Shown one piece after another: positions 3,637 to 15,743 of a DNA stretch of 40,825 bases. The notes under the pieces were generated by a model that was not told the origin of the DNA, did not search any database, and saw only the letters and a list, made by a program, of their open reading frames with translations. Within the stretch, counting starts at the first letter, position 1; every line of letters begins with the position of its first letter. Source of the stretch: Stutzerimonas stutzeri (GTDB taxonomy: Bacteria > Pseudomonadota > Gammaproteobacteria > Pseudomonadales > Pseudomonadaceae); NCBI RefSeq assembly GCF_024451105.1, contig NZ_JANGEY010000019.1, positions 1-40,825 of the forward strand, written 5' to 3'. The translations under genes were made by a program, and so were the position numbers.

Positions 3637-3984
3637 GGGATGCCTCCCGGAATCAGCAAACGGGCTCCATCATGAGTTTTAGATGTAGGGCGGCGCGCTC
3701 GGCCGCCCTGCAAGAGTTCCGTTAGCCGTAACGCTAGCAGACTGACCCGGCGCTGCTGCTCCGGGCACGTCCGTTCGTCCGCTTTCTCTCGCTGTAGCCA
3801 TCCGAGTGCTACGGGCACAGCCCGGGCCGGGCGGCCTGCACGCGTCTGGCCGGGCATCGGCAGGGGCGTTCGCGGGGCGCCCGCTGCGTGGCGCCGCTCA
3901 TCGGCCGGAGCGCCGTGCGGGCCGATCGATGGGGTGTATGATCCGGACCAGCCGATTCTCGAAACCCTCTGCAGGAACCTGTTC
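3637..3984. other. Intergenic region with a hairpin and a weak -10 element
   Basis: No gene is visible in these 348 bases. An 8-bp stem (3687-3694 with 3702-3709, loop of 7) lies just upstream of the DUF2790 gene and could end leftward or rightward transcription, though it has no T tract. A TATGAT sequence at 3937-3942, about 43 bases before the restriction gene's ATG, is a plausible -10 element; no good -35 is evident. Confidence 0.35.
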
Positions 3985-5856
3985 ATGGAAGCCAACAGCC
4001 GTCCCCTGATGCGCATCTTCGAGCCCACCGTGTGCTACCAGATCCCGCTGTTCCAGCGCCCCTACGTCTGGCGGCGCGAGGGCAACTGGCAGCCGCTGTG
4101 GGATGACTTCGAGCGTCTGCTCGACCATGCGCTGGCCGGCCAGCGCCTGCGTCCGCACTTCCTCGGCGCGGTGGTGATCGAGCAGCTGTTCGACGCCAGC
4201 GGCTGGGTGCAGCTGCGCCAGGTCATCGACGGCCAGCAGCGCCTCACCACCCTGCAGCTGCTGCTGATCGCCCTGCGCGACCTGTGCGCCAGCCTGGGCA
4301 GCAAGCGCTACTTCGAGCGCTTCGAGTCGCTGGTCGCCAACCGCGCGGCGATGGTCGACCAGCCGGAGGAGATCTTCAAGCTGCTGCCGACCAACTTCGA
4401 CCGCAAGGCCTACGCCCTGGTGCACCGGGCCGGCAGCCCCGAGGCGCTGCTGGCGCAGTTGCAGGAAGAGGGCGAGGAAGCCGACCGCGAGCAGGGCATC
4501 GTCGGCGCCTACCTGTACTTCCACGAACAGTGCGCCGACTGGCTGCAGCAGCCGGTCGCGGAGCGCCCCTACCTGGAACTGGAGGACCGCCTCGAGGCGC
4601 TCTGGGCGGTGGCGCAGAAGGGCCTGCAGCTGGTGGTGATCGAACTCGGCGAGCACGACGAGGCCCAGGTGATCTTCGAGACCCTCAACGCCCGCGGCAC
4701 CCAGCTGCTGCCGGCCGACCTGATCAAGAACCTGCTGTTCCGCCGCGCCCAGGCCGAGGGCGACGACATCGACCGGCTGTACCGCACCTATTGGGCGCAA
4801 TTCGACGGCGAGTTCTGGCGCGAGGAAGTCCGCCAGGGCCGCGAAAGCCGGCCGCGCATCGACATCTTCATGCGCCATTTCCTGACCCTGGCCATGCGCC
4901 GGGACGTCCGCTTCGTGCACCTGTTCGACGAGTACAAGCACTACGTGCAGTACACCGACGACTGGCGCTCGTGCCTGATCGGCGAGGTCACCAGCGCCCG
5001 CGAGCACCTGGCGCTGCTCGCCGGTTATGCCGAGCACTTCCGCGAGTTCGCCAGCCCGGCGCCGGGCTCGCACCTGGCACGCTTCCTCAAGCGCCTGGAG
5101 GCGCTCGACACCTCGGCGATTTATCCGCTGCTGCTCTTGTGCAGCCGGCACCTGCGCCCGCAGCAGGAGGACGAGTTCGAGGCGATCCTCGACGTGCTCG
5201 AGTCGTTCCTGTTCCGCCGCATGATCTGCGGCCTGACCAGCAAGAACTACAACCGCCCGTTCCTCGACCTGATCCGCCATCTGGAGGACACCGGCAGCAT
5301 CAGCGCCCGCGCCGTCGAGCAGTTCCTGCTGGCCAGCGAAGGCGAGGGCGCGCGCTTCCCGACCGACGCCGAACTCAAGCGGGCGATCCTCGACCATCCG
5401 CTGTACCAGTGGTGGCCGCAGTACCGCGTGCGCGCCGTGCTGGAAGCGCTGGACGCGGCGCTCGGCAACGCCGAAAGCGAGGCGGACAGCCCGCTGGCCA
5501 TCGAGCACATCCTGCCGCAGAAGTGGGACGAGCACTGGCCGCTGCCGAAAACCGTGCAGAAGAATGCGCAAGGCAAACAGGCCTTCACCGAACAACGCGA
5601 CCGCCTCAAGCACACGCTGGGCAACCTGACACTGGTCGCCGGCAGCCTCAACCCGGCGCTGTCGCGCTCGCCGTGGGAAGTGAAGAAGGCGGAGCTGCTC
5701 AGGTGCAGCCAGCCGGGCCTGAGCCGGGAGCTGCATGAGGTGGAGGACTGGGCGGAGCGGGAGATTCTGGCCAGGGGAGAGGTGCTGGCTGAGGTGGCTT
5801 GTGAACTCTGGCCCTATCCGTCAGCGGTTCAGGCGGCGCCGTATCGCGAGGCATAG
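3985..5856 (+). CDS. GmrSD-like type IV restriction protein (DUF262 plus DUF1524)
   Basis: This single 623-residue chain combines both halves of GmrSD. The N-terminal DUF262 half (about 1-230) has the ParB/sulfiredoxin-like pattern: IPLFQRPYVW at about 20-29 and the DGQQR motif at 82-86, expected to bind and hydrolyse NTP. The C-terminal DUF1524 half has the HNH-like IEHILPQKW motif with His508. Proteins of this type cleave DNA carrying modified (for example glucosylated hydroxymethyl) cytosines. The ATG at 3985 is preferred to 3934 because AGGA lies 6-9 nt upstream and the domain starts immediately. Length and motifs look intact. A diverged copy of its 3' end occurs after hipA. The modified-base specificity is inferred from the family only. 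Confidence 0.85.
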   Translation: MEANSRPLMRIFEPTVCYQIPLFQRPYVWRREGNWQPLWDDFERLLDHALAGQRLRPHFLGAVVIEQLFDASGWVQLRQVIDGQQRLTTLQLLLIALRDLCASLGSKRYFERFESLVANRAAMVDQPEEIFKLLPTNFDRKAYALVHRAGSPEALLAQLQEEGEEADREQGIVGAYLYFHEQCADWLQQPVAERPYLELEDRLEALWAVAQKGLQLVVIELGEHDEAQVIFETLNARGTQLLPADLIKNLLFRRAQAEGDDIDRLYRTYWAQFDGEFWREEVRQGRESRPRIDIFMRHFLTLAMRRDVRFVHLFDEYKHYVQYTDDWRSCLIGEVTSAREHLALLAGYAEHFREFASPAPGSHLARFLKRLEALDTSAIYPLLLLCSRHLRPQQEDEFEAILDVLESFLFRRMICGLTSKNYNRPFLDLIRHLEDTGSISARAVEQFLLASEGEGARFPTDAELKRAILDHPLYQWWPQYRVRAVLEALDAALGNAESEADSPLAIEHILPQKWDEHWPLPKTVQKNAQGKQAFTEQRDRLKHTLGNLTLVAGSLNPALSRSPWEVKKAELLRCSQPGLSRELHEVEDWAEREILARGEVLAEVACELWPYPSAVQAAPYREA

Positions 5857-5946
5857 ATCGGCTCACGGGATGGCCTGGGCCGCTATCAGGGGCATCGGCC
5901 CTGCGCGGTGCGCGCCGGTGGCCGATGCGGGCGATCCCCCGCATCC

Positions 5947-5964
5947 CATTCCCGATCGGGAATG
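5947..5964. promoter_or_regulatory. Putative HipB operator O1
   Basis: A perfect 18-bp palindrome with core TTCCCGATCGGGAA (5949-5962), centred at 5955.5. Two further sites with nearly the same core follow at exact 50-bp intervals up to the hipB start. HipB-type antitoxins repress their own operon by binding several inverted repeats, so these sites are read as autoregulatory operators. Confidence 0.7.
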
Positions 5965-5995
5965 AATCGCCCGTACAGCCACCTGAATGCGCGCG

Positions 5996-6015
5996 ATCTT
6001 CCCGATCAGGAAGAT
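5996..6015. promoter_or_regulatory. Putative HipB operator O2
   Basis: A 20-bp inverted repeat with 7-bp outer arms (ATCTTCC and GGAAGAT) and core TTCCCGATCAGGAA (5999-6012), centred at 6005.5. It differs from O1 by one core base and is the least symmetric of the three. Confidence 0.7.
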
Positions 6016-6040
6016 TGGCTTGCGTCAGTGCGGTTCCCGA

Positions 6041-6070
6041 CGAATAATTTCCCGAACGGGAAATTATTCG
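6041..6070. promoter_or_regulatory. Putative HipB operator O3, overlapping the hipBA translation leader
   Basis: The strongest of the three sites: two perfect 14-base arms around a central AA, core TTCCCGAACGGGAA (6049-6062), centred at 6055.5. It ends 8 bases before the hipB ATG, so bound repressor would block initiation, and the transcript could also fold here. The extended AT-rich arms (AATAATT/AATTATT) distinguish it from O1 and O2. Confidence 0.7.
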
Positions 6071-6078
6071 AGCACGCC

Positions 6079-6333
6079 ATGATTCCTATCGACTCCACAC
6101 AAGCGCTCGGCGCAGCCCTGCGAGCCGCACGCAAGCAACTGGGCCTGACGCAAGCCGATCTGGCCCTGGCCGCCGGGGTGGGCGTGCGCTTCGTGGTCGA
6201 TCTGGAGGCCGGCAAGCCCACGGTGCGGCTGGAGCAGGTGCTCCGCGTGATCGATGCCCTGGGCGGCCGGGTCCGACTGGACGGACTTGCGGATTCTCCG
6301 TCTCCAGCAGAGCCCACTCGTCATGGCGCATGA
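6079..6333 (+). CDS. hipB: HipB-type antitoxin, Xre-family HTH
   Basis: This 84-residue protein has a Cro/C1 helix-turn-helix at about 10-65 (LGAALRAARKQLGLTQADLA, then GVGVRFVVDLEAGKPTVRLE). HipB antitoxins bind operator DNA as dimers and hold the HipA kinase inactive. The ATG at 6079 is chosen because the longer upstream reading would run through the palindromic operators. The stop overlaps the hipA start by 11 bases, indicating translational coupling. Three matching palindromes directly upstream support autoregulation. Confidence 0.85.
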   Translation: MIPIDSTQALGAALRAARKQLGLTQADLALAAGVGVRFVVDLEAGKPTVRLEQVLRVIDALGGRVRLDGLADSPSPAEPTRHGA

Positions 6334-7600
6334 ACTCGCCGTCTGGCTGTTCGCCGAGCAGGTCGGCAGCTTGTCGCTGGTCGATGGTCGCCTGAGCTTC
6401 GCTTATCACCCCGGCTGGCTGGCGAACCCCGACGCGGTAGCGCTGTCGTGCTCCCTGCCGCTGCAGGCGGCCCCCTTCGATGACATTCGTACCCGGCCTT
6501 TCTTTGCCGGGCTGTTACCGGAAGGCCATCTGCGGCGCTTGATCGCCCAACGGTTCCAGGTGTCGAGGCAGAACGATTTCGCCCTGCTGGATGCCATCGG
6601 CGGCGAGTGCGCCGGGGCCATCACGCTGCTGCCGAAGGATGCAGTCCCGCAGGTCGCCGGCGCGGGCGAGGTGTCGTGGCTGGACGATCAACGACTGTCC
6701 GCGATCCTCGACGAGCTGCCCCGTCGCCCGATGCTGGCCGGTCAGGACGGCCTGCGCCTGTCGCTCGCCGGCGCTCAGGACAAGCTGCCGGTGGTGTTCG
6801 ACGGGCAGCGCATCGGCTTGCCTTTGGGAGGACACCCCAGCACGCATATCCTCAAGCCGCCGATCCACGCACTCGAGAATACGGTGCTCAACGAAGGCTT
6901 CTGCCTCGCCCTGGCCCATGCGATGAAGTTGCCAACTGCCGAAGCACGGATTCATCAGGCTGGCGACCGCCGCTTCCTGCTGGTCGCTCGTTATGACCGC
7001 CAGCGCGATGCACAAGGCAATCTGGTACGTCTGCATCAGGAGGATTTCTGCCAGGCGCTCGGCGTGGTGCCGGAAATGAAGTATCAGAACGAGGGCGGCC
7101 CCGACCTGAAAGCCTGTTTCGATCTGCTGCGGCGCGTCACCCGCCCCAATGCCCCCCAGGTGCTGCGTCTGTTGGACTATGTGGTGTTCAACGCCCTGGT
7201 CGGCAACCACGATGCGCACGCCAAGAACTTCTCGCTGCTGTTCGCCTCCCCCTCATCCAGAGCGGCACCGACCCTGGCGCCGCTCTACGATGTGCTGTCG
7301 ACCGCCATCTACCCGAGCCTCACCCCGAAGATGGCGATGAAGCTGGGCAGCAAGTACAAGTTCAGCGAAGTCGAGGCCCGGCACTGGGAGCAATTCGCCG
7401 AGGCCGCCGGGCTGTCACGCGCCCAGACCCGCAAGCGAATCCTTGGCATGGCGCAGGCGCTGCCCAGGGCTGCGCGTACCTTGCAAGCGACGCCCATGTT
7501 TGCGGGAGAGCCACTGATCGAACAGATTGCGACCCTGATCGAGCAACGCGCGGCACTGACTATCCGACGCCTCACAGAAGAAGGTGATGATTCAGCCTGA
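6323..7600 (+). CDS. hipA: HipA-type serine/threonine kinase toxin
   Basis: At 425 residues the protein has the usual HipA length and both family domains. The N-terminal couple-hipB part (about 1-105) precedes the kinase domain. Visible landmarks are the autophosphorylation loop LSLAGAQDK with Ser147, the HILKPP segment with Lys178, the catalytic loop NHDAHAKN (Asp297, Asn302) and YDVLS with Asp323. HipA kinases phosphorylate an aminoacyl-tRNA synthetase and halt growth; the exact target of this one cannot be read from sequence. The ATG at 6323 overlaps the end of hipB. All key residues are present, so it appears active. A restriction-gene remnant follows within about 10 bases of the stop. 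Confidence 0.88.
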   Translation: MAHELAVWLFAEQVGSLSLVDGRLSFAYHPGWLANPDAVALSCSLPLQAAPFDDIRTRPFFAGLLPEGHLRRLIAQRFQVSRQNDFALLDAIGGECAGAITLLPKDAVPQVAGAGEVSWLDDQRLSAILDELPRRPMLAGQDGLRLSLAGAQDKLPVVFDGQRIGLPLGGHPSTHILKPPIHALENTVLNEGFCLALAHAMKLPTAEARIHQAGDRRFLLVARYDRQRDAQGNLVRLHQEDFCQALGVVPEMKYQNEGGPDLKACFDLLRRVTRPNAPQVLRLLDYVVFNALVGNHDAHAKNFSLLFASPSSRAAPTLAPLYDVLSTAIYPSLTPKMAMKLGSKYKFSEVEARHWEQFAEAAGLSRAQTRKRILGMAQALPRAARTLQATPMFAGEPLIEQIATLIEQRAALTIRRLTEEGDDSA

Positions 7601-8090: not shown

Positions 8091-8684
8091 TTACTGCCCT
8101 GTTGCAGCCTTTGTGTCACCTGGGTCGCAAAGGGCTAAAGCCAACCCAGAGCGGTCAACTGAACCGCCCTCTCTTTTGTTCAGCAACGCGGCGAGCGGGC
8201 TGCCGGCGGCCACATAGGGCACGACGATCTCGCTGGCCAGCGCCAGCACCAGCCGGTTGCGCTCAAGCGCAGTTGCGCGGGTGGTGCGGCGCACCCGTGG
8301 CGAGCAGGCGGTGATAACCAGCATCCGGCCAGCGGCCAGCGCTTCGCACTCCTCCGCGGCAGGGCGGTAATCCGCGTTTTCGTCACCGAAGCCGCGGGCC
8401 AGCACCTTGACCACGCGGCCCTGGCGCCGCAGCACCGAGCGCAGCACCTGCTGCTCCAGCGGTGAATGAAAGCCGCTGACGATGACGCGCCCGGCCTTCA
8501 CCCACTCCGGCACGCGGTCCAGCGTTGCGAGCAGGACGTGACCGGGGCATTCGCGCGAGGCAATGAAGCCGAGCAGAGACTCCGCCAGTAGAGCCGTCTC
8601 GCCAGCGCCGACTATTCGGGTGGAGAGTTCAGCGCCGACGTGCTGGGCGCGGTGAGGCGGCAAGGTGACGAGGGCGGGCTTCAT
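8091..8684 (-). CDS. DprA/SLOG-like Rossmann-fold protein of the methylase-helicase operon
   Basis: This 197-residue protein resembles the Rossmann-type core of DprA/Smf DNA-processing proteins. It has a VIVSGFHSPLEQQVLRSVL segment, where SLOG proteins carry the phosphate-binding loop, and an ERNRLVLALASEIVVPYVAA segment comparable to the RRNRIIAGLS region of DprA. It lacks the SAM-like N-terminal and winged-helix C-terminal domains of full DprA. Its ATG overlaps the methylase stop by 4 bases (ATGA), so it is translationally coupled to that gene. SLOG-fold proteins bind nucleotides or DNA; here it may be a sensor or DNA-handling accessory. The function is inferred only. Confidence 0.6.
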   Translation of the reverse strand: MKPALVTLPPHRAQHVGAELSTRIVGAGETALLAESLLGFIASRECPGHVLLATLDRVPEWVKAGRVIVSGFHSPLEQQVLRSVLRRQGRVVKVLARGFGDENADYRPAAEECEALAAGRMLVITACSPRVRRTTRATALERNRLVLALASEIVVPYVAAGSPLAALLNKREGGSVDRSGLALALCDPGDTKAATGQ

Positions 8685-11600
8685 TCTTCCTCGTCGGTCC
8701 CACCCATGCGGTACTTGATGTCGTAGTTGATGATGAAGTCGGTTTCTTCATCGGTGAAGCTCAGCATCCTTCCCAACTCCAAGTCTACTTGGTCGATGAT
8801 GGGCTTCGATGCCCTGATTTTGAAACTTTGGGTTTCGGTACGTCCTGTAGATTTCTGGTTGCGGGCGAGCATAGTGCTGTTGCGCTGAAGATCCTCGATG
8901 TATTCATATGCTAGTGATTTCAGCTTGGGCGAGTTTAATGCCGCACGAGGGACGGGGAACTCCTGAATATCCGTCGGATTCAGGTCGCGGAGATTAGATG
9001 TGATCGTGTACCACCACCAAAAACAGTTGCTGCTCAAAACAGCAACGAGCGGTATGGCATCATCCACTTCTCGTGTTGCAAAGCTTGTTTCTCGGCTGCT
9101 GCTTCCAGGGACGCCATTTGCCGTGAATGCAGGGGCAAAATTCGTAAATACTTTCCAATAGAGGCCGCCCGTTGTGCGGTAGTAAACGCGGCCTTGAGAT
9201 CGCCCAAAGAAAGTCCTGGCTTTGGAATCAGCTGAAAGTAACTTCCTAAGGATGCCCGGCTCGATCTCCTCTCCCATTTTGGGAATCCAAAATGAAGGAC
9301 GCTCCCTATCGACCTCCGAATAGAGAAGGCGCTCAAACAGGCCGTCTCGATCAGAACTAGTCCACTTGATGTATCTAGTAGAGAAGCTACTTGGGTTGGG
9401 AGACGCCAAGCTGACAAATATCGTAAGCGCTCTATTTACCGTGTCAAACAGCTTGGCTGGGCGCCATGCGAAGTTTGAAAACCATGTTGAACGACTGCGC
9501 TCGATGATTTTCTGTACTGTACGCATACGTTGAGTTGAGGGTAGTGCAAGCGGAACAATCATGCTGATCGCACCGTTCTTTGACAAAAGGTCGCAACTTC
9601 TCTCCATGCACATGGCATGAATTGCATTGCTCTCGCGTGATGCAAACCCACTCAGTGAATACTCAACCTCACGGACTTCGAGATACGGCGGATTCCCAAT
9701 CACCACATCGAACCCACCCTCGCACATCACGCCGTAGAACTCGGCGAACCAGTGGAAGGGTTGGTGGCTCTCGCGCCAGGCGGCGAAGGCCTTAGCTTTG
9801 TCGGGGTCAATGCCATAATCGCGGGCCAGATACCGGTCCAGTTCCAGGCTCAGCACAGCAAGCTTGTCGCGCAGCTTGCGCTTGTCTTCGGCCGTCACCT
9901 TGCCACCGTGCATGGTTTGCTGCTCACGGAAGCGGTCGAACAGGTCGGCCAGGTCGGCGGTGCTGGCTTTGATTTCGGCGCGATGGGTCTGGTCGCTGGC
10001 CAGGGTGTTGGCTGCGTCAAACTGCGCCTCGGTGGCGTAGCCGACCAGGGTATTGCCGGCGCGGATGTTGAAGTCGATGTCGGGCAGCGGTTCCAGCTGG
10101 CGTCCGGCATCCACCTGTGACACCAGCTTGAGGAAGAGGCGCAGCTTACAGATTTCCACCGCCTCGGCCATGATGTCCACGCCGAAGAGGTTGTGCAGGA
10201 TGATGCTCTTGAAGATGTAGTAGCGGCGCGAGGGGTGCTTGTCGACCTCGGCCAGCACCTTGGCGAAATCGGCCTCGCCGGCTTTGCCGAGCTTCTTCGC
10301 ATCCTCGACAAACCCCTCCATGCGCTCCAGACAGGCTTCGTAGAGCGGCTCCAGGATGTTGAGCGCGGCGAACAGGAAGGCGCCAGAGCCGCAGGTGGGG
10401 TCGAGGATGGTGATGCCGTGGCGGAATTTCTCGTTGGACTTTTCCGGCACACGGCCGACGATGGCTTGCCAGACGGCGCGCAGCAGGTCGGGGCTGGTCG
10501 CGGTGTCGATCACATCCTGCATGAACTGGCGGATGTCCAGGTTCAGGGTGATGAGGTCGTCGGCGCTTTTCACCTCGCCTTGGGCCAGCTTATCGCGCAC
10601 AGCCAGGCAGCGCGTGCGGCGCTCGACGTACTCGCGCCAGGTTTCGGTAGGCAGGGTTCCGCGCTCGCCGGTGACGGTGTGGAAGGTTGCTTCGCCTAGG
10701 TTGTAGCGTCGTTCGAACATGCGCGCCTTGGCGTCCTTCATGCCCGTCTGCACGAAGTCGGGCAAGGCCGATTCGGGGACGACATTGCCCTTGGCGTCGA
10801 TGACGCCGGTTTTCATGGACGGGTAGAGGTAACGGTCAGGGTCGGCTTTGAGCAGTTTCCAAACCGAGGCCTCGCCGTCGAAGGCGACCTTGCAACGCTC
10901 GCGAGCCTGCGCGATCAGGTGTGGGATGACGGTGTTCTTGCTGATGTATTCGGTGATGTCTTCCTTGGTGTAGTACGCCCCCATCTGCTTCTGGTTGATG
11001 TATTTCTCGAAGATGTAGCCGAGCACGTCGGGGTTGATTTCCTTCCCGCTGGAAAGTGGGCGGTCGTCCAGATGCCAGTCCCAAGCGTCGAAGAAGGCGA
11101 ACAGGCGCTCGAAGGCTTCGTCGGGCACATCAATGGCGGGGTTAGCCTCTTCCAGCTCGTGCACGGAAAACAGGCCGCCGTTGAGATAGGGCACGTCGCC
11201 GATCAGGCGCGTGAGCTCTGCGTTGCGCTCGGCCTTGGCCTGGCCCAGCCCTTCGTGAAACAGGCGGCGCAGGAATTGACGGTAGAAGCTGTGAAACTTG
11301 CCCTTGCCGGCGGTCGCCTGAACCTGGGCCATGCGCTTGGCGAGATAGTTTTCGTCGCCATCCAGAAACCCTTTTTTCTGGATGAAGTACACAAACATCA
11401 GCCGGTTGAGCATCAGCGATGCGTACCAGGCCTTTTCGCTGGCTGCGCTCAGGCCCTCGATGAACTCGGCAAACGCTTCGTGCTGGGCCTTGAATTTGTC
11501 ATAGAAGCTCTTGGAGACGCGGTCGCGGTCGAAGGCATTGCGCAGGCCAGTGATCACGTCGGTGAGGGTGATAGCCTCTTCCTCTTCCAGCGACCAGACG

Positions 11601-12004
11601 ATTTGAGCGAGCTTCTGCCGCAGCGATTCGCCACTCTGCCCTTTGTGCCAGGTATGGGTACGGGTGGTCGTGGGCTGCCCCGGCGCACGCGACACCCATA
11701 GCCAAGTGAGCATGGTTTCCTTGGCGTCGGCGAAGACCAGCAGATGTTCGTGGGCGAGCTTGGCGGCCTCCTTCTCGATCCTGAGCAGCAGCGGGCGCGA
11801 GGGCACTTTGCCGGAGCTGTCGGGTGAGCAGCGGAATACCGCAACACCACGCTTGTGGGCAATGTTTGTGAGGGTGAAAGCCTCACCGTTGGCCGTGACG
11901 GTTTGAGGTTTGAGGTTGTGGCGCTCCCATCCAAGCTCGTTGAACAGTTGCTCCAGCTTGAATTCGCCAAGCAGTTTCTGGAAGCGGGTGGCATCGAGTG
12001 TCAT
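8681..12004 (-). CDS. N6-adenine DNA methyltransferase of a restriction/defence operon
   Basis: This 1107-residue protein has the gamma-class N6-adenine methyltransferase motifs: the AdoMet site ILDPTCGSGAF at about 530-545 and the catalytic NPPY (VVIGNPPYLEV) at about 765-770. The long N-terminal region (about 1-500) resembles the helical N-termini of Eco57I-like and PglX-like enzymes. The region after NPPY (about 790-1107) should recognise the target sequence and is visibly richer in A/T than the rest. An AGGGAAAG site precedes the ATG. It lies 22 bases after the PLD-helicase gene and overlaps the DprA-like gene. Expected role: methylating host DNA so that the helicase-nuclease spares it. 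No nuclease domain was recognised in this chain. Confidence 0.85.
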   Translation of the reverse strand: MTLDATRFQKLLGEFKLEQLFNELGWERHNLKPQTVTANGEAFTLTNIAHKRGVAVFRCSPDSSGKVPSRPLLLRIEKEAAKLAHEHLLVFADAKETMLTWLWVSRAPGQPTTTRTHTWHKGQSGESLRQKLAQIVWSLEEEEAITLTDVITGLRNAFDRDRVSKSFYDKFKAQHEAFAEFIEGLSAASEKAWYASLMLNRLMFVYFIQKKGFLDGDENYLAKRMAQVQATAGKGKFHSFYRQFLRRLFHEGLGQAKAERNAELTRLIGDVPYLNGGLFSVHELEEANPAIDVPDEAFERLFAFFDAWDWHLDDRPLSSGKEINPDVLGYIFEKYINQKQMGAYYTKEDITEYISKNTVIPHLIAQARERCKVAFDGEASVWKLLKADPDRYLYPSMKTGVIDAKGNVVPESALPDFVQTGMKDAKARMFERRYNLGEATFHTVTGERGTLPTETWREYVERRTRCLAVRDKLAQGEVKSADDLITLNLDIRQFMQDVIDTATSPDLLRAVWQAIVGRVPEKSNEKFRHGITILDPTCGSGAFLFAALNILEPLYEACLERMEGFVEDAKKLGKAGEADFAKVLAEVDKHPSRRYYIFKSIILHNLFGVDIMAEAVEICKLRLFLKLVSQVDAGRQLEPLPDIDFNIRAGNTLVGYATEAQFDAANTLASDQTHRAEIKASTADLADLFDRFREQQTMHGGKVTAEDKRKLRDKLAVLSLELDRYLARDYGIDPDKAKAFAAWRESHQPFHWFAEFYGVMCEGGFDVVIGNPPYLEVREVEYSLSGFASRESNAIHAMCMERSCDLLSKNGAISMIVPLALPSTQRMRTVQKIIERSRSTWFSNFAWRPAKLFDTVNRALTIFVSLASPNPSSFSTRYIKWTSSDRDGLFERLLYSEVDRERPSFWIPKMGEEIEPGILRKLLSADSKARTFFGRSQGRVYYRTTGGLYWKVFTNFAPAFTANGVPGSSSRETSFATREVDDAIPLVAVLSSNCFWWWYTITSNLRDLNPTDIQEFPVPRAALNSPKLKSLAYEYIEDLQRNSTMLARNQKSTGRTETQSFKIRASKPIIDQVDLELGRMLSFTDEETDFIINYDIKYRMGGTDEEE

Positions 12005-12026
12005 GTTCTATTCTTTCCCTGCTGGA

Positions 12027-15000
12027 TCAGGCCAGGCCCATGGAGCAGATGAGCTTGGGCTCCTTCTGCTGGTCTTGATCGTCAATTACGCACAAACGCC
12101 CGTCTTCCCGCAGTGCGAAAACGAGGTCCAGCAACTGGTGGTCGCCAATGCCGGCCTTGAGTTGACGGTTGAGGCTGTCGATAGCCGATTGGTAGAGCGG
12201 GTAGCGGTAAATTTCCTCCATGACCCGGTCGATGCGGCGCACGTACTCGTCGGTGATGAACAGATCGCGCTTGTCGCCCAGCCCTTCGCGGAAGCGCTTG
12301 AGGCGCTCGAAAGCCTTGAAGCGAGCACCGGAGGGGCGGCCCAAGGCTCCGCCGAAGGATTTTTCTTCTTCGACGATGTGGGCCAGGCCCTGTTGCGTGA
12401 GCGCGTGATGGTGCTCGGTGCGCGGCAGGGCCGGCGTATCTGCCGAGCAGGCGGCGGCTTTCAGGATGGTGAGCTGGGACTGGGTGACCGGCTTGCCATC
12501 TTCGTCCATCCAGGCCAGGGCGTCGTTGCCCTGCGCCGTGCGCATGTACATCAGCACGCCCCTGGGGGATGCCGGATTATGCTCGTGAGCCTTGGTGGCA
12601 TACACAACGTTGGGCATGGCCTCGATCCCGGTGGCCAGTGACGGATCGGCATCGGTGGCGTTTTTCCAGATCTGGTAGGCGTAGGAGGCGAGGTCCACCT
12701 CGCTGTCGCCGTCGTCGTCCAGGATGCCGTTCTTCTCGGTGTAGAGGTCGCGGATCAGCTCTTCGTCTGTGTCGTCGTCGAAGAAGCTTTCGTCTGACCC
12801 CACGACCTCGGCATTCTGAATCAGGCGTTGCTTGACCCGGGCGCGCAGATTGATGAGCCGCTCCACGCCGTCGGCCGGCACGAAGGAATAACAGAGGATG
12901 GTGTCGGACTGCTGGCCGATACGGTCCACACGGCCAGCACGCTGGATCAGGCGGATGATGGCCCACGGCAGGTCGTAGTTGACGATGATGTGCGCGTCCT
13001 GCAGGTTCTGGCCTTCGGAGAGCACATCGGTGGCGATCAGCACGCGCAGCTCGTCGGCCTTTTTAACCTGCTCGCGCTTGCCGTTCGATTCCGGCGAGAA
13101 GCGCCAGGCCAGCGAGGTCGGATCGGCGCTCTGGCCGGTGGCTTCTTCCACCTGCTTAATGCCGCGTGCCGCCAGCTGTGCGTTGAGGTAGCGGGCGGTA
13201 TCGGCAAACTGGGTGAAGATGAGGAGCTTTTCCTTTGGGTGGCGCTCGTTGATCAGCTCGATGAGGGCGGCCAACTTTGTATCCGCATCGGCCTGCCAGT
13301 CTCCGCAGAGTTTGAGGAGTTGAAGCAGGGCTTGCGTATCGGCCTGCAAGTCCTTGGCGAGCGCCTTGATGAACAGGCCACCGGGCAGCCATTTGAAGCG
13401 ACTCTTGAACGAGCCACAGTAGGCCTCATACGCCTTAGCAGCTCGGGAGCGGTAGTCGGCTTCAGTGCGCAGTTCATTGGTGGCGGTGGGATCGGTGATG
13501 TCCTCATCGCCATTATCATCGGCCAACAGGCCGTCCGGGTCTTCGTCGTAATGGCGGGTGTCAAGCAGTTCGGCACCTTGCGTGCCGAGTGGGATGTCCA
13601 GGCAGTTCTCGATGGCATGCAGAACGACGAAATTACGCAGGATATGGCGCTCGATGGACAGGATGAACGCCGGGCCGGCGCTTTCCAGCCGCTTGAAAAG
13701 GTTGGTGCGGCAAAAGCCCATCAGGCGTGTGCCGGCACGGGATAGCCCTTCAATGATCTTGGCTTGGTGCGGCGTGGGCGGCGTTTTGGGCTTGGGGGCA
13801 ACGTAGTTGCCCAGGCCGTAGCGCGGTAGGATCAACTCGTTGATCGCATTGACCACCGGGTCGCTGTAGAAACGCGCAAACGGGTCGGATGGGTTTGCAT
13901 CGTCAATATTGAAACTGAGGTTTTTCGGCAGGCGCTTCGGAAAGTAGGACCTGCGGCCGTCCGCAAACAACAGGTACTTGCCGCGTTCGTCCTCGCGGGC
14001 GTAGTGCTGCATGATGAAGCCACGAGTGCGGCGCACCATGTACAGACGCATCAAATCCCGCCAGTCGTCGGGGATTTCACTTTTTTCGAAGGCGGCCAGA
14101 GAGCGCACACCGCACTGGTGGCGGCGAATGAATTCGTGCTCTCCGCCCAACGCGGCCAGCAGTTTTTCCGGGCGGATGCCGATATCCGCGTCCTCATGCA
14201 GGAACAAGGCTAGTTGGGCGGAAAGGTCGAGATAGGTCTTGTTGTAGGGCGTGGCCGAGAGCAACACGGTGAGGCTATCGTTGCGCTCGATGTAGTCGCG
14301 GATGACCTTCCAGCGCTTGCCTTCCTTGTTGCGCAGGTTGTGCGATTCATCGATGAGGACCAGCCGGTAACGCCGGGTTTTCTCCGGGAGTTCAGTTAGC
14401 ACCTTGGACAACGGCAGCACCTTGGCGTGCAGGCGATACCGGTGGGCATAGTCCTCCCACATCGAAACGAGGTTCTTGGGGCAGATTATGAGCGTTTCGG
14501 TGTGGTAATCGTCCTCGAAAACCTTGGCCAGGGCAGTGGCCATCATCGACTTGCCCAGACCGACCACGTCGCCTATCAGCACGCCGCCACGCTTGTTCAG
14601 GTGGTGCGCGGCGATCTTGACCGCCGCAACCTGGAAATCAAAGAGTGACTCACCGAAAACCGCAGGAATGCGGAACTCCGAAAGGCCTGCACGCGCTTCC
14701 TGGGCGAGGTGGTAGGCCATCTTGAGGTAGACGTGATACGGCGACACCAGTCGCTCGCCGGCCCAGCTCTCATCAATGATGTCGGCCAGCTCCTTGGAAA
14801 TATCGATGCACCAGCGGTCCCGCCAACGATCTTCGAACCAATCGACCAGCTTATTGCAGGCGTCGTGCTCTAGCACATCGACGTTTAGCTCGCCTTGCTT
14901 GGCAAGGCCTGCGAGCGTGAGGTTTGAGCTGCCCAGAAAACCGGTGACTGGATTGTTGGCGTCCTGCCGATGCAGCAGGTAGAGCTTGGCGTGCAGGGGG

Positions 15001-15407
15001 TGGCGCAGATACACCTTGACGACAAGCTTTTTGGCGCGAATCTGGGCCGAGAGCTGGCGCAGCGCCGCTTCGTCATCGTTGGTCGGAACGCCGAAGGTCA
15101 ATTGCTGACGGAACTCCTCGGCAATGCGGCGTTTTTCCCGTAGCGCCGTCTGGTTGTCGAGAATGTCATCGTCTTCGCGAGTGCGCAGGGCCTGCCGGAG
15201 CTCATCGCTGGGAGAAACATGCATTCCGACCAGCAACCGGCAGCAATGGCCGTCACCACCAGCCCATTTATCGACGTACCCGGAAAGGTGACGCCAGCCG
15301 CGCAGGTTGAAATACCCGACGCAGAAATCGGCGCGCTCGGCAGCCTTGAAGGTTTCCTGTAGTGCCGGCAGCAGAGGTTTTTCTATGTTGTCGAAGATTC
15401 TCGGCAT
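12027..15407 (-). CDS. PLD-nuclease/SNF2-type helicase of the defence operon
   Basis: This 1126-residue fusion has an N-terminal phospholipase-D-type nuclease region (HAKLYLLHR near 136, then GFLGSSNLTLAG), giving one HxK motif, so a dimer would form the active site. A superfamily 2 helicase follows: Walker A GDVVGLGKSMM near 276, DESH box near 352, SATPYNK motif III, and a C-terminal RecA lobe with LSEGQNLQDA and a QRAGRVDRIGQ motif VI. The likely role is ATP-driven translocation on and cutting of unmodified DNA, with the downstream methyltransferase as protection. It starts 14 bases after the HTH gene with a GAGAGGGG site. All motifs look intact. Confidence 0.85.
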   Translation of the reverse strand: MPRIFDNIEKPLLPALQETFKAAERADFCVGYFNLRGWRHLSGYVDKWAGGDGHCCRLLVGMHVSPSDELRQALRTREDDDILDNQTALREKRRIAEEFRQQLTFGVPTNDDEAALRQLSAQIRAKKLVVKVYLRHPLHAKLYLLHRQDANNPVTGFLGSSNLTLAGLAKQGELNVDVLEHDACNKLVDWFEDRWRDRWCIDISKELADIIDESWAGERLVSPYHVYLKMAYHLAQEARAGLSEFRIPAVFGESLFDFQVAAVKIAAHHLNKRGGVLIGDVVGLGKSMMATALAKVFEDDYHTETLIICPKNLVSMWEDYAHRYRLHAKVLPLSKVLTELPEKTRRYRLVLIDESHNLRNKEGKRWKVIRDYIERNDSLTVLLSATPYNKTYLDLSAQLALFLHEDADIGIRPEKLLAALGGEHEFIRRHQCGVRSLAAFEKSEIPDDWRDLMRLYMVRRTRGFIMQHYAREDERGKYLLFADGRRSYFPKRLPKNLSFNIDDANPSDPFARFYSDPVVNAINELILPRYGLGNYVAPKPKTPPTPHQAKIIEGLSRAGTRLMGFCRTNLFKRLESAGPAFILSIERHILRNFVVLHAIENCLDIPLGTQGAELLDTRHYDEDPDGLLADDNGDEDITDPTATNELRTEADYRSRAAKAYEAYCGSFKSRFKWLPGGLFIKALAKDLQADTQALLQLLKLCGDWQADADTKLAALIELINERHPKEKLLIFTQFADTARYLNAQLAARGIKQVEEATGQSADPTSLAWRFSPESNGKREQVKKADELRVLIATDVLSEGQNLQDAHIIVNYDLPWAIIRLIQRAGRVDRIGQQSDTILCYSFVPADGVERLINLRARVKQRLIQNAEVVGSDESFFDDDTDEELIRDLYTEKNGILDDDGDSEVDLASYAYQIWKNATDADPSLATGIEAMPNVVYATKAHEHNPASPRGVLMYMRTAQGNDALAWMDEDGKPVTQSQLTILKAAACSADTPALPRTEHHHALTQQGLAHIVEEEKSFGGALGRPSGARFKAFERLKRFREGLGDKRDLFITDEYVRRIDRVMEEIYRYPLYQSAIDSLNRQLKAGIGDHQLLDLVFALREDGRLCVIDDQDQQKEPKLICSMGLA

Positions 15408-15421
15408 GTTTCCCCTCTCAC

Positions 15422-15628
15422 TTAATCAGTCGAAGGTTTTACGGGCTTCCCGTCGTCACAGGCGCCACCCGCGCGCACCCATTCATCAACCTCGGATACC
15501 TTGAACTTCCACAGCCGCCCAACGCGATGCGCAGGCAACCCCTTGCGATCGATCCAGCGGTAGATAGAGTCGCGTGTCACACCCAGATGCTCCGCAATCT
15601 GGTCGACGGATACCCAAGGCTCGGTCAT
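15422..15628 (-). CDS. Excisionase/MerR-type helix-turn-helix DNA-binding protein
   Basis: This 68-residue protein has the pattern WVSVDQIAEHLGVTRDSIYR followed by RKGLPAHRVGRLWKF, which is the small winged HTH of the excisionase family (HTH_17). Such proteins occur as Xis factors and as small regulators at the head of defence operons. It is the first gene of the leftward operon and no integrase is in the window, so a regulatory role is favoured. The start at 15628 is chosen because GGAG lies 7-10 bases upstream and the domain begins at once; a longer reading from 15691 adds nothing recognisable. Confidence 0.7.
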   Translation of the reverse strand: MTEPWVSVDQIAEHLGVTRDSIYRWIDRKGLPAHRVGRLWKFKVSEVDEWVRAGGACDDGKPVKPSTD

Positions 15629-15743
15629 GGCGTCGCTCCGGCAGAGGTTGTTCGGATCGCATAAAGTCGGTTGCAGTCGTAAAAAGTGCAATCTATCAGG
15701 CAGGCGGACAGCTGACGAGCATTGTTATGACTGGGATTCAGAG

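Follow-up and report, generated by a model that had tools for sequence, protein, structure and literature searches.

Gene content and conservation of the helicase-methylase core

The DNA under study is a 40,825-nucleotide contig of Stutzerimonas stutzeri (NZ_JANGEY010000019.1, assembly GCF_024451105.1), here called the window, in which an initial annotation made from the sequence alone had proposed a restriction-type defence operon at positions 8091-15628. The operon consists of four minus-strand genes in the order helix-turn-helix (HTH) protein, PLD-SNF2 helicase-nuclease, N6-adenine DNA methylase and DprA/SLOG-like protein (Table 1), and all four open reading frames (ORFs) are intact. The tight packing claimed for them was reproduced on the DNA: the junctions are 14 bp between HTH gene and helicase and 22 bp between helicase and methylase, and the start of the DprA-like gene overlaps the methylase stop by 4 bp. 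Purine-rich stretches precede the starts of the helicase, methylase and DprA-like genes. The proteins were compared with the PADLOC (2023), NCBIfam and Pfam profile libraries, and the Pfam scores quoted for the operon are all over the cut-offs.

To collect relatives, genome contigs were scanned with a profile built on methylase alignment A1. At least 590 stretches matched, giving at least 406 relatives, and the best 80 loci were retained. Most methylase relatives are metagenome-assembled genomes by record title, and the titles include Pseudomonadota, Verrucomicrobia, Chloroflexi, Poribacteria, Planctomycetes, Cyanobacteria and Acidobacteria among the phyla spanned. Where at least 2.5 kb was available upstream of the methylase, the helicase was held by 66 of 69 loci; those without it are L048, L078 and L108. 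A script rule placed it directly upstream in 64/69, missing L044 and L112, in which the methylase frame had been called too long. The co-occurrence across genomes that the initial annotation proposed as a check is thus found for this pair, and the recurrence of the genes together goes far beyond chance. Together, helicase and methylase are a conserved core unit of restriction-like type.

Pfam and the DNA bear out the description of the helicase as a fusion of PLD nuclease and SNF2 helicase with intact Walker A and DESH motifs. The Pfam scores are 59.6 bits for Helicase_C, 40.4 for SNF2-rel_dom and 29.4 for PLDc_2, and the top PADLOC model is C3a139 'HKD+Snf2' (166 bits, residues 112-871). The position after Walker A is Ser here vs. 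Thr in 85% of 68 helicases. The methylase was likewise correctly described as a 1107-aa gamma N6-adenine enzyme, with an Eco57I profile match and the motifs DPTCGSGAF and NPPY. It also matches the PADLOC model PDLC03628 REase_MTase_IIG over residues 1-1102 at 923 bits, a full-length type IIG match.

The C-terminal part of the methylase varies strongly. Among the window methylase and seven close relatives (28 pairs), residues 141-780 are on average 81.7% identical (76-91) and residues 781-1060 only 28.8% (18-71). Over the whole set, 94 of 3160 methylase pairs reach at least 75% identity in residues 141-700, and 74 of these 94 fall to 35% or less in residues 781-1060. The recognition region of the window enzyme is 60% identical to that of L047 and 22% to that of L036, and the cores rank oppositely. 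L047 was rejected as a plain swap of the recognition region, as it is not among the pairs whose recognition region exceeds the core. Given a conserved core and turnover in residues 781-1060, this segment behaves like a target-recognition region, as in restriction-modification.

A relative of the pair lies on plasmid pSYSX of Synechocystis PCC 6803 (SGL_RS01585 and SGL_RS01600), in the same order, with a helicase 55% and a methylase 44% identical to those of the window. It differs in having a VapC-family gene and a small gene between helicase and methylase, with a DUF2513 gene after them, and no DprA-like gene was found at that locus. Judging by this relative and by the full-length type IIG match, the methylase is not new. 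Two DNA methylases are listed for pSYSX as a whole in its PLSDB gene table, a kind of table that is incomplete: a type I enzyme and SGL_RS01600. Since M.Ssp6803IV, with the motif GAm6AGGC, has been placed on pSYSX (PMC7296061, PMC6604393, as far as their available text goes), SGL_RS01600 is probably M.Ssp6803IV. The recognition region of the window differs from that of SGL_RS01600, so that its motif need not be GAm6AGGC. The same plasmid carries multiubiquitin, E2, ThiF and DUF6527 genes just past the helicase-methylase pair (L029:11793-14414). It also contains a large repeated block, with many protein accessions shared between ∼4-27 kb and 59-82 kb (L131, L115).

The HTH gene had been read as an excisionase-like component of the system. 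The label stands (TIGR01764, 61.9 bits over a cut-off of 28.8; HTH_17, 60.9 bits in Pfam), and membership in a conserved system does not. The gene was found directly upstream of the helicase in 5 loci (tblastn, 86 loci), with a sixth match, in L045, on the opposite strand. In 62 of the 80 loci the sequence extends 250 bp or more beyond the start of the helicase, and five upstream occurrences among these 62 rule out the HTH as a core component. It is a probable local regulator.

On the plus strand, gmrSD and hipBA adjoin the operon and converge on it. Both gene sets were found by Pfam and ORF scans as the initial annotation had them, and the neighbourhood is a small defence island. The opposite flank carries an acyl-CoA-dehydrogenase-type gene. 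The G+C content is 0.58-0.61 for the methylase, helicase and HTH genes vs. 0.69 for the flank (15700-40825), which fits acquisition; the DprA-like gene stands at 0.68. Scans for promoters and terminators found no clear surplus relative to shuffled sequence. The same genome contains a second long PLD-domain frame of 1094 aa (G000:C6:47056-47853; L004, L005).

Table 1. Features of the operon and of the adjoining defence genes (positions in the window; conservation per residue among the relatives compared).
Feature	Position	Strand	Remarks
Excisionase/HTH_17-type DNA-binding protein	15422-15628	-	68 aa; frame open to TTG at 15691
PLD(HKD)-SNF2 helicase-nuclease, proposed effector and translocase	12027-15407	-	1126 aa; Pfam PLDc_2, RE_NgoFVII, SNF2-rel_dom, Helicase_C
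PLD catalytic segment	14922-14993 (HAK 14985-14993, GSSN 14922-14933)	-	Read on DNA; each residue 97-99% kept, 68 helicases
Walker A GDVVGLGK	14550-14573	-	Read on DNA; K 100%, 68 helicases
Walker B DESH	14340-14351	-	Read on DNA; D, E, S 100%, H 94%, 68 helicases
Helicase motif VI QRAGRVDRIGQ	12912-12944	-	Read on DNA; 91-100%, 68 helicases
Eco57I-type N6-adenine DNA methylase	8681-12004	-	1107 aa; Pfam Eco57I 79.9 bits
Methylase N-terminal domain, residues 1-140	11585-12004	-	No PDB sequence match up to E 1
Methylase motif I DPTCGSGAF	10376-10402	-	Read on DNA; 91-100%, 80 methylases
Methylase catalytic motif NPPY	9683-9694	-	Read on DNA; NPP 100%, Y 96%, 80 methylases
Variable C-terminal region, residues 781-1060, putative target-recognition domain	8825-9664	-	Identity comparison
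DprA/SLOG-like protein	8091-8684	-	197 aa; Pfam DNA_processg_A 38.6 bits, cut-off 29.6
gmrSD	3934-5856	+	Pfam GmrSD_N and GmrSD_C; type IV restriction
hipBA, HTH gene	5908-6333	+	
hipBA, HipA gene	6254-7600	+	

The DprA-like gene and the interval before it

The fourth protein had been described as DprA/SLOG-like and translationally coupled, in agreement with its DNA_processg_A match and its overlap with the methylase. Its best PADLOC match is PsyrA (58.6 bits), and it falls short of the DprA equivalog of competence, TIGR00732 (33.4 of 191.15 bits). Among the 80 loci, 46 have the gene downstream, on the strand of the methylase, and none has it upstream; with at least 6 kb of downstream sequence it is present in 30/41. 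It starts within 60 bp of the methylase in 15/46 loci, with the 4-bp overlap in 10/46. Over 43 loci, DprA-like protein and methylase are co-inherited (rho 0.74, 0/2000 permutations). The partnership of the DprA-like gene with the core is real and frequent, but the gene is separable. The conserved co-occurrence suggested earlier for this gene therefore holds as frequent downstream association with a tendency to co-inheritance, and not as a fixed link.

Assembly breaks and the 10-kb flank hide some DprA-like copies, hence 49 genomes were searched whole (L099, which bears the same isolate name as L097, was left out before this count). Of 33 genomes with a locus lacking the gene, 13 had a strong copy (E < 1e-30) outside the locus, in several cases within ∼2 kb of a contig start; 20/33 had none. 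One of these 13 copies, in G588, lies 12.3 kb past the methylase on the same contig. Each of the 16 genomes behind loci with the DprA-like gene held exactly one strong copy.

Three phyla were then compared. In the phylum of G609 (a Poribacteria record; 84 genomes; E limits of 1e-25 for the DprA-like protein, 1e-60 for the methylase and 1e-100 for the helicase), 37 genomes hold the DprA-like gene, 26 the methylase and 28 the helicase. The DprA-like gene is present in 24 of the 26 methylase genomes (Fisher p 1.1e-9, a guide only as the genomes are related), and 19/38 copies have a core gene nearby on the same contig. In the phylum of G578 (a Kapaibacterium record; 395 genomes), 38 genomes match at 1e-12, in 39 places; among the best 16 of the 39, six have the methylase upstream on the same strand and five have too little contig. 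Thirteen of 398 genomes in the window's own phylum match the DprA-like protein at E ≤ 1e-10, and the short frame occurs only in the window. The other 12 have longer frames, two of which (L118, L123) adjoin a RecQ-like gene as judged by eye.

Viral contigs were searched with the DprA-like family alone. Three of five loci have methylase and helicase upstream, two of them directly. In a fourth (L136:5986-8133) a short DprA-like gene lies directly upstream of a type I HsdR with SNF2 motor, and the fifth starts 80 bases into a 4-kb contig. One viral contig (L134:1-12414) encodes helicase, methylase and DprA-like gene, followed by a HAD-hydrolase/transmembrane gene and an LmuB-like gene. Plasmid and phage searches with DprA-like proteins gave no match.

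The interval between methylase and DprA-like gene is variable. It measures at least 60 bp in 31/46 loci and at least 400 bp in 29/46, and is filled with varied genes. At L037:13348-14892 it holds a full-length AbiP2-type reverse transcriptase (672.8 bits) that shares 4 bp with the end of the methylase gene, at a place where close relatives are directly coupled. Further defence matches in such intervals are GmrSD (L089), SIR2 with HerA (L058) and an OLD-family ATPase with TOPRIM (L078). When 20 of the interval genes were scanned singly, eight had no Pfam match and one, in L055, was of integrase/transposase type. A set of 117 genes downstream of the methylase, from relatives with and without the DprA-like gene (3 methylase-like genes of 120 removed), gave matches to 393 PADLOC and 98 Pfam families. 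Up to 7/117 are matched by GajA-type ATPase models, in matches that are shared with related ATPases and do not count Gabija systems; the mad3 model matches 5/117, probably also as related ATPases. The defence matches in interval and downstream genes were counted without a comparison set of other neighbourhoods. With variable genes, several of them of defence type, the interval is a place to look for further systems.

Proposed mode of action and alternative explanations

We infer a defence function, and the operon probably encodes a three-part, ATP-dependent, restriction-modification-like defence system. The methylase would recognise a short sequence by means of its variable C-terminal region and mark self DNA with N6-methyladenine. 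Where DNA is unmarked, this same recognition would recruit or activate the PLD-SNF2 protein, which would move along the DNA by ATP hydrolysis and cut with its PLD domain. Should an asymmetric site (such as GAAGGC) carry the mark on a single strand, one daughter duplex would be unmarked after replication, and attack should then need two sites or motor movement. Such a requirement is familiar from type III and type ISP enzymes. The DprA-like protein would regulate the helicase-nuclease, most likely as a restraint released on foreign or single-stranded DNA. This gating role is a tentative proposal, made by analogy: RqlI binds the helicase RqlH and limits its toxicity (PMC4670107), and the DprA homologues in shosTA, syrTA and rqlHI are called antitoxins (PMC9122126). 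For these two reasons gating is favoured over a loading function. The earlier picture of a modification-guided DNA-degrading system is thus kept for its restriction-like core, and its 'sensor or loading factor' is not the best-supported role for the SLOG protein.

Several observations weigh against this proposal. The DprA-like gene was undetected in 11 of the 41 loci with at least 6 kb downstream, in 5/5 plasmid relatives screened and in the annotation of a sixth. In the G609 phylum, 12 of the 37 genomes with a DprA-like gene hold neither core gene at the set limits, and 5 of the best 16 G578-phylum loci have context but no core. These core-less copies in two phyla rule out that the DprA-like gene is strictly linked to the core. 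The co-inheritance drops to rho 0.45 when close relatives are removed (32 loci; 0/2000, highest permutation 0.39). RqlI binds the PRTase part of RqlH (PMC4670107), and PADLOC, Pfam and NCBIfam scans found no PRTase domain in the helicase of the window, unlike in RqlI-bound RqlH. The set is also rare near home: 15 of 185 genomes of the window's class match the methylase at E 1e-3, its own included, and the single other close methylase among them is that of G068 (1.3e-80). We met no restriction experiment on any member in the literature.

Two alternatives concern the DprA-like protein. As a loading or sensing factor, which we consider somewhat doubtful, it would bind the single-stranded DNA of entering phage or plasmid and hand it to the helicase-nuclease. 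DprA-like proteins do bind single-stranded DNA in competence, and it has been proposed that one could sense phage DNA (PMC9122126). The family itself is DprA/SLOG; the core-less viral copy stands just upstream of an HsdR with SNF2 motor, and in one cellular genome (G646) a DprA-like match lies ∼40 bp before the helicase match, with the methylase on another contig. A loading role fits less well with the helicase-methylase pairs on plasmids that do without the gene, and with the DprA homologues of three systems being antitoxins or restraints (PMC9122126, PMC4670107). The gene could instead be mobile cargo, or the antitoxin of neighbouring cargo, that shares a defence slot with the core pair. Its persistence in the core-less genomes speaks for this, as do the varied genes, known defence genes among them, in the interval before it. 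We read 12 neighbourhoods (L169-L180), from 11 of the 12 core-less genomes and from G696, which has a helicase fragment; such a fragment is kept in two (L177, L180), and a pair of genes of ∼430-450 and 177-182 aa, recognised by length alone, lies near the DprA-like gene in 8/12. The single pair scanned encodes an AAA_21 ATPase and a protein without match. Cargo is nevertheless unlikely in view of the direct 4-bp coupling to the methylase with nothing between them in 10/46 loci, the same-strand downstream position in 46/46, and the co-inheritance with the methylase.

The other two alternatives concern the core. The full-length type IIG match would suit a methylase that works alone as a type IIG enzyme, cutting with an N-terminal nuclease of its own, the helicase being an unrelated neighbour, and conserved acidic positions 27, 77 and 86 in the N-terminal domain (84-93%) leave room for an unusual active site. 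We regard this as very improbable: nearly all testable loci hold the helicase, and residues 1-140 have, besides no PDB match, no clear D...(D/E)xK signature among the positions conserved in 80 sequences. Alternatively, the operon might be a stripped relative of DISARM class I, ARMADA, CxC-ABC/Pbe or the type-2 BREX-related (BR) systems, with other genes lost. The helicase matches DrmD (117 bits) and PbeA (47 bits) in PADLOC and DISARM_DrmD in NCBIfam (130 of 610 bits), the methylase matches DrmMI and PglX weakly, and type-2 BR uses an HKD-SNF2 helicase and an N6-methylase (PMC12839542). This origin is quite unlikely. The window's own genome gave no match to DUF499 (PF04465; the control rings in 1/14), PglZ (PF08665; control in 2/14) or MZB/DUF1998 (control in 8/14), the search for DrmA, YprA and ABC-ATPase partners being less than genome-wide. 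The hallmark genes are not in the 25 most frequent families of the 117 downstream genes, a count in which rarer cases could be missed.

Under the three-part reading, many phyla have a DprA-like protein next to a methylase and a motor of restriction type. A broader and decidedly speculative extension is that SNF2-driven restriction machines in general have a licensing subunit in the form of a short DprA/SLOG-like protein, and that the gap between methylase and licensing gene is a protected defence slot. If so, the licensing subunit would check the helicase-nuclease on self DNA and release it when the DNA is foreign, perhaps also with certain type I HsdR motors (seen in a single case), and the slot would shelter other defence genes in a nested, two-layer immunity.

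Comparison with known defence systems

The initial annotation recognised no named system at the locus, and none of the PADLOC 2023, NCBIfam or Pfam profile sets names the whole gene set. No description of the set was found in the searched literature, which covers few subscription journals and not bioRxiv's own holdings. Type IIG and type ISP enzymes have a gamma-class N6 methylase with a C-terminal recognition region, joined in ISP by an SF2 motor. In the window, nuclease and motor are instead in a separate PLD-SNF2 protein. For Hma, HmaA scores 70.5 bits with a best stretch of 118 residues, and the operon has no separate ATPase gene. The equivalog cut-offs of MADS are not reached: the HTH protein scores 64.8 of 80 bits for MAD1 in NCBIfam (the PADLOC mad1 model does match it, at 51.7 bits), and MAD2 scores 11.8 of 720 bits.

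The four-gene operon encodes no DrmA or DrmB (no genome-wide DrmA search was made). The genome lacks MZB/DUF1998, which we take to be the mark of DrmB, and PglZ, the hallmark sought for BREX, in keeping with the earlier remark that neither system was recognised. Like the window, DISARM class I and ARMADA both contain the pair of RapA/SNF2-type helicase and PglX-like methylase, but they also carry YprA-family helicases, and the available part of that report makes no mention of DprA (PMC12458937). The operon has no third helicase, and MZB is missing from the genome, YprA itself not having been searched. The CxC ABC-ATPase/PbeABCD systems have an HKD endoDNase fused to an SF2 helicase, some with a DNA methylase, and are organised around an ABC ATPase and a DndE cognate (PMC10853773, accessible portion); the window operon encodes neither of these two (genome not searched).

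RqlHI, PsyrTA and ShosTA pair a DprA-like protein with a helicase or a PRTase, and no methylase is named for them in the accessible parts of the two reports (PMC4670107, PMC9122126). RqlI has extra HTH and MoCo-like domains, and RqlH, a RecQ-like helicase, carries a PRTase domain (PMC4670107). The partner in the window is PLD-SNF2 and not the RecQ-like helicase sought for PsyrTA and RqlHI.

The closest published design that we met is type-2 BR, in which, as here, an HKD nuclease is N-terminal on an SNF2 helicase and accompanied by an N6-adenine methylase (PMC12839542). Type-2 BR differs in being built on a DUF499 ATPase; it carries DUF3780 (1090 taxa, 98%), and the part of the paper available names no DprA, SLOG or Smf, unlike the operon described here (PMC12839542). 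The core and its DprA-like partner make up a compact set of three genes that does without the large BREX or BR ATPases, so that the role of the DprA-like protein is testable by single-gene removals.

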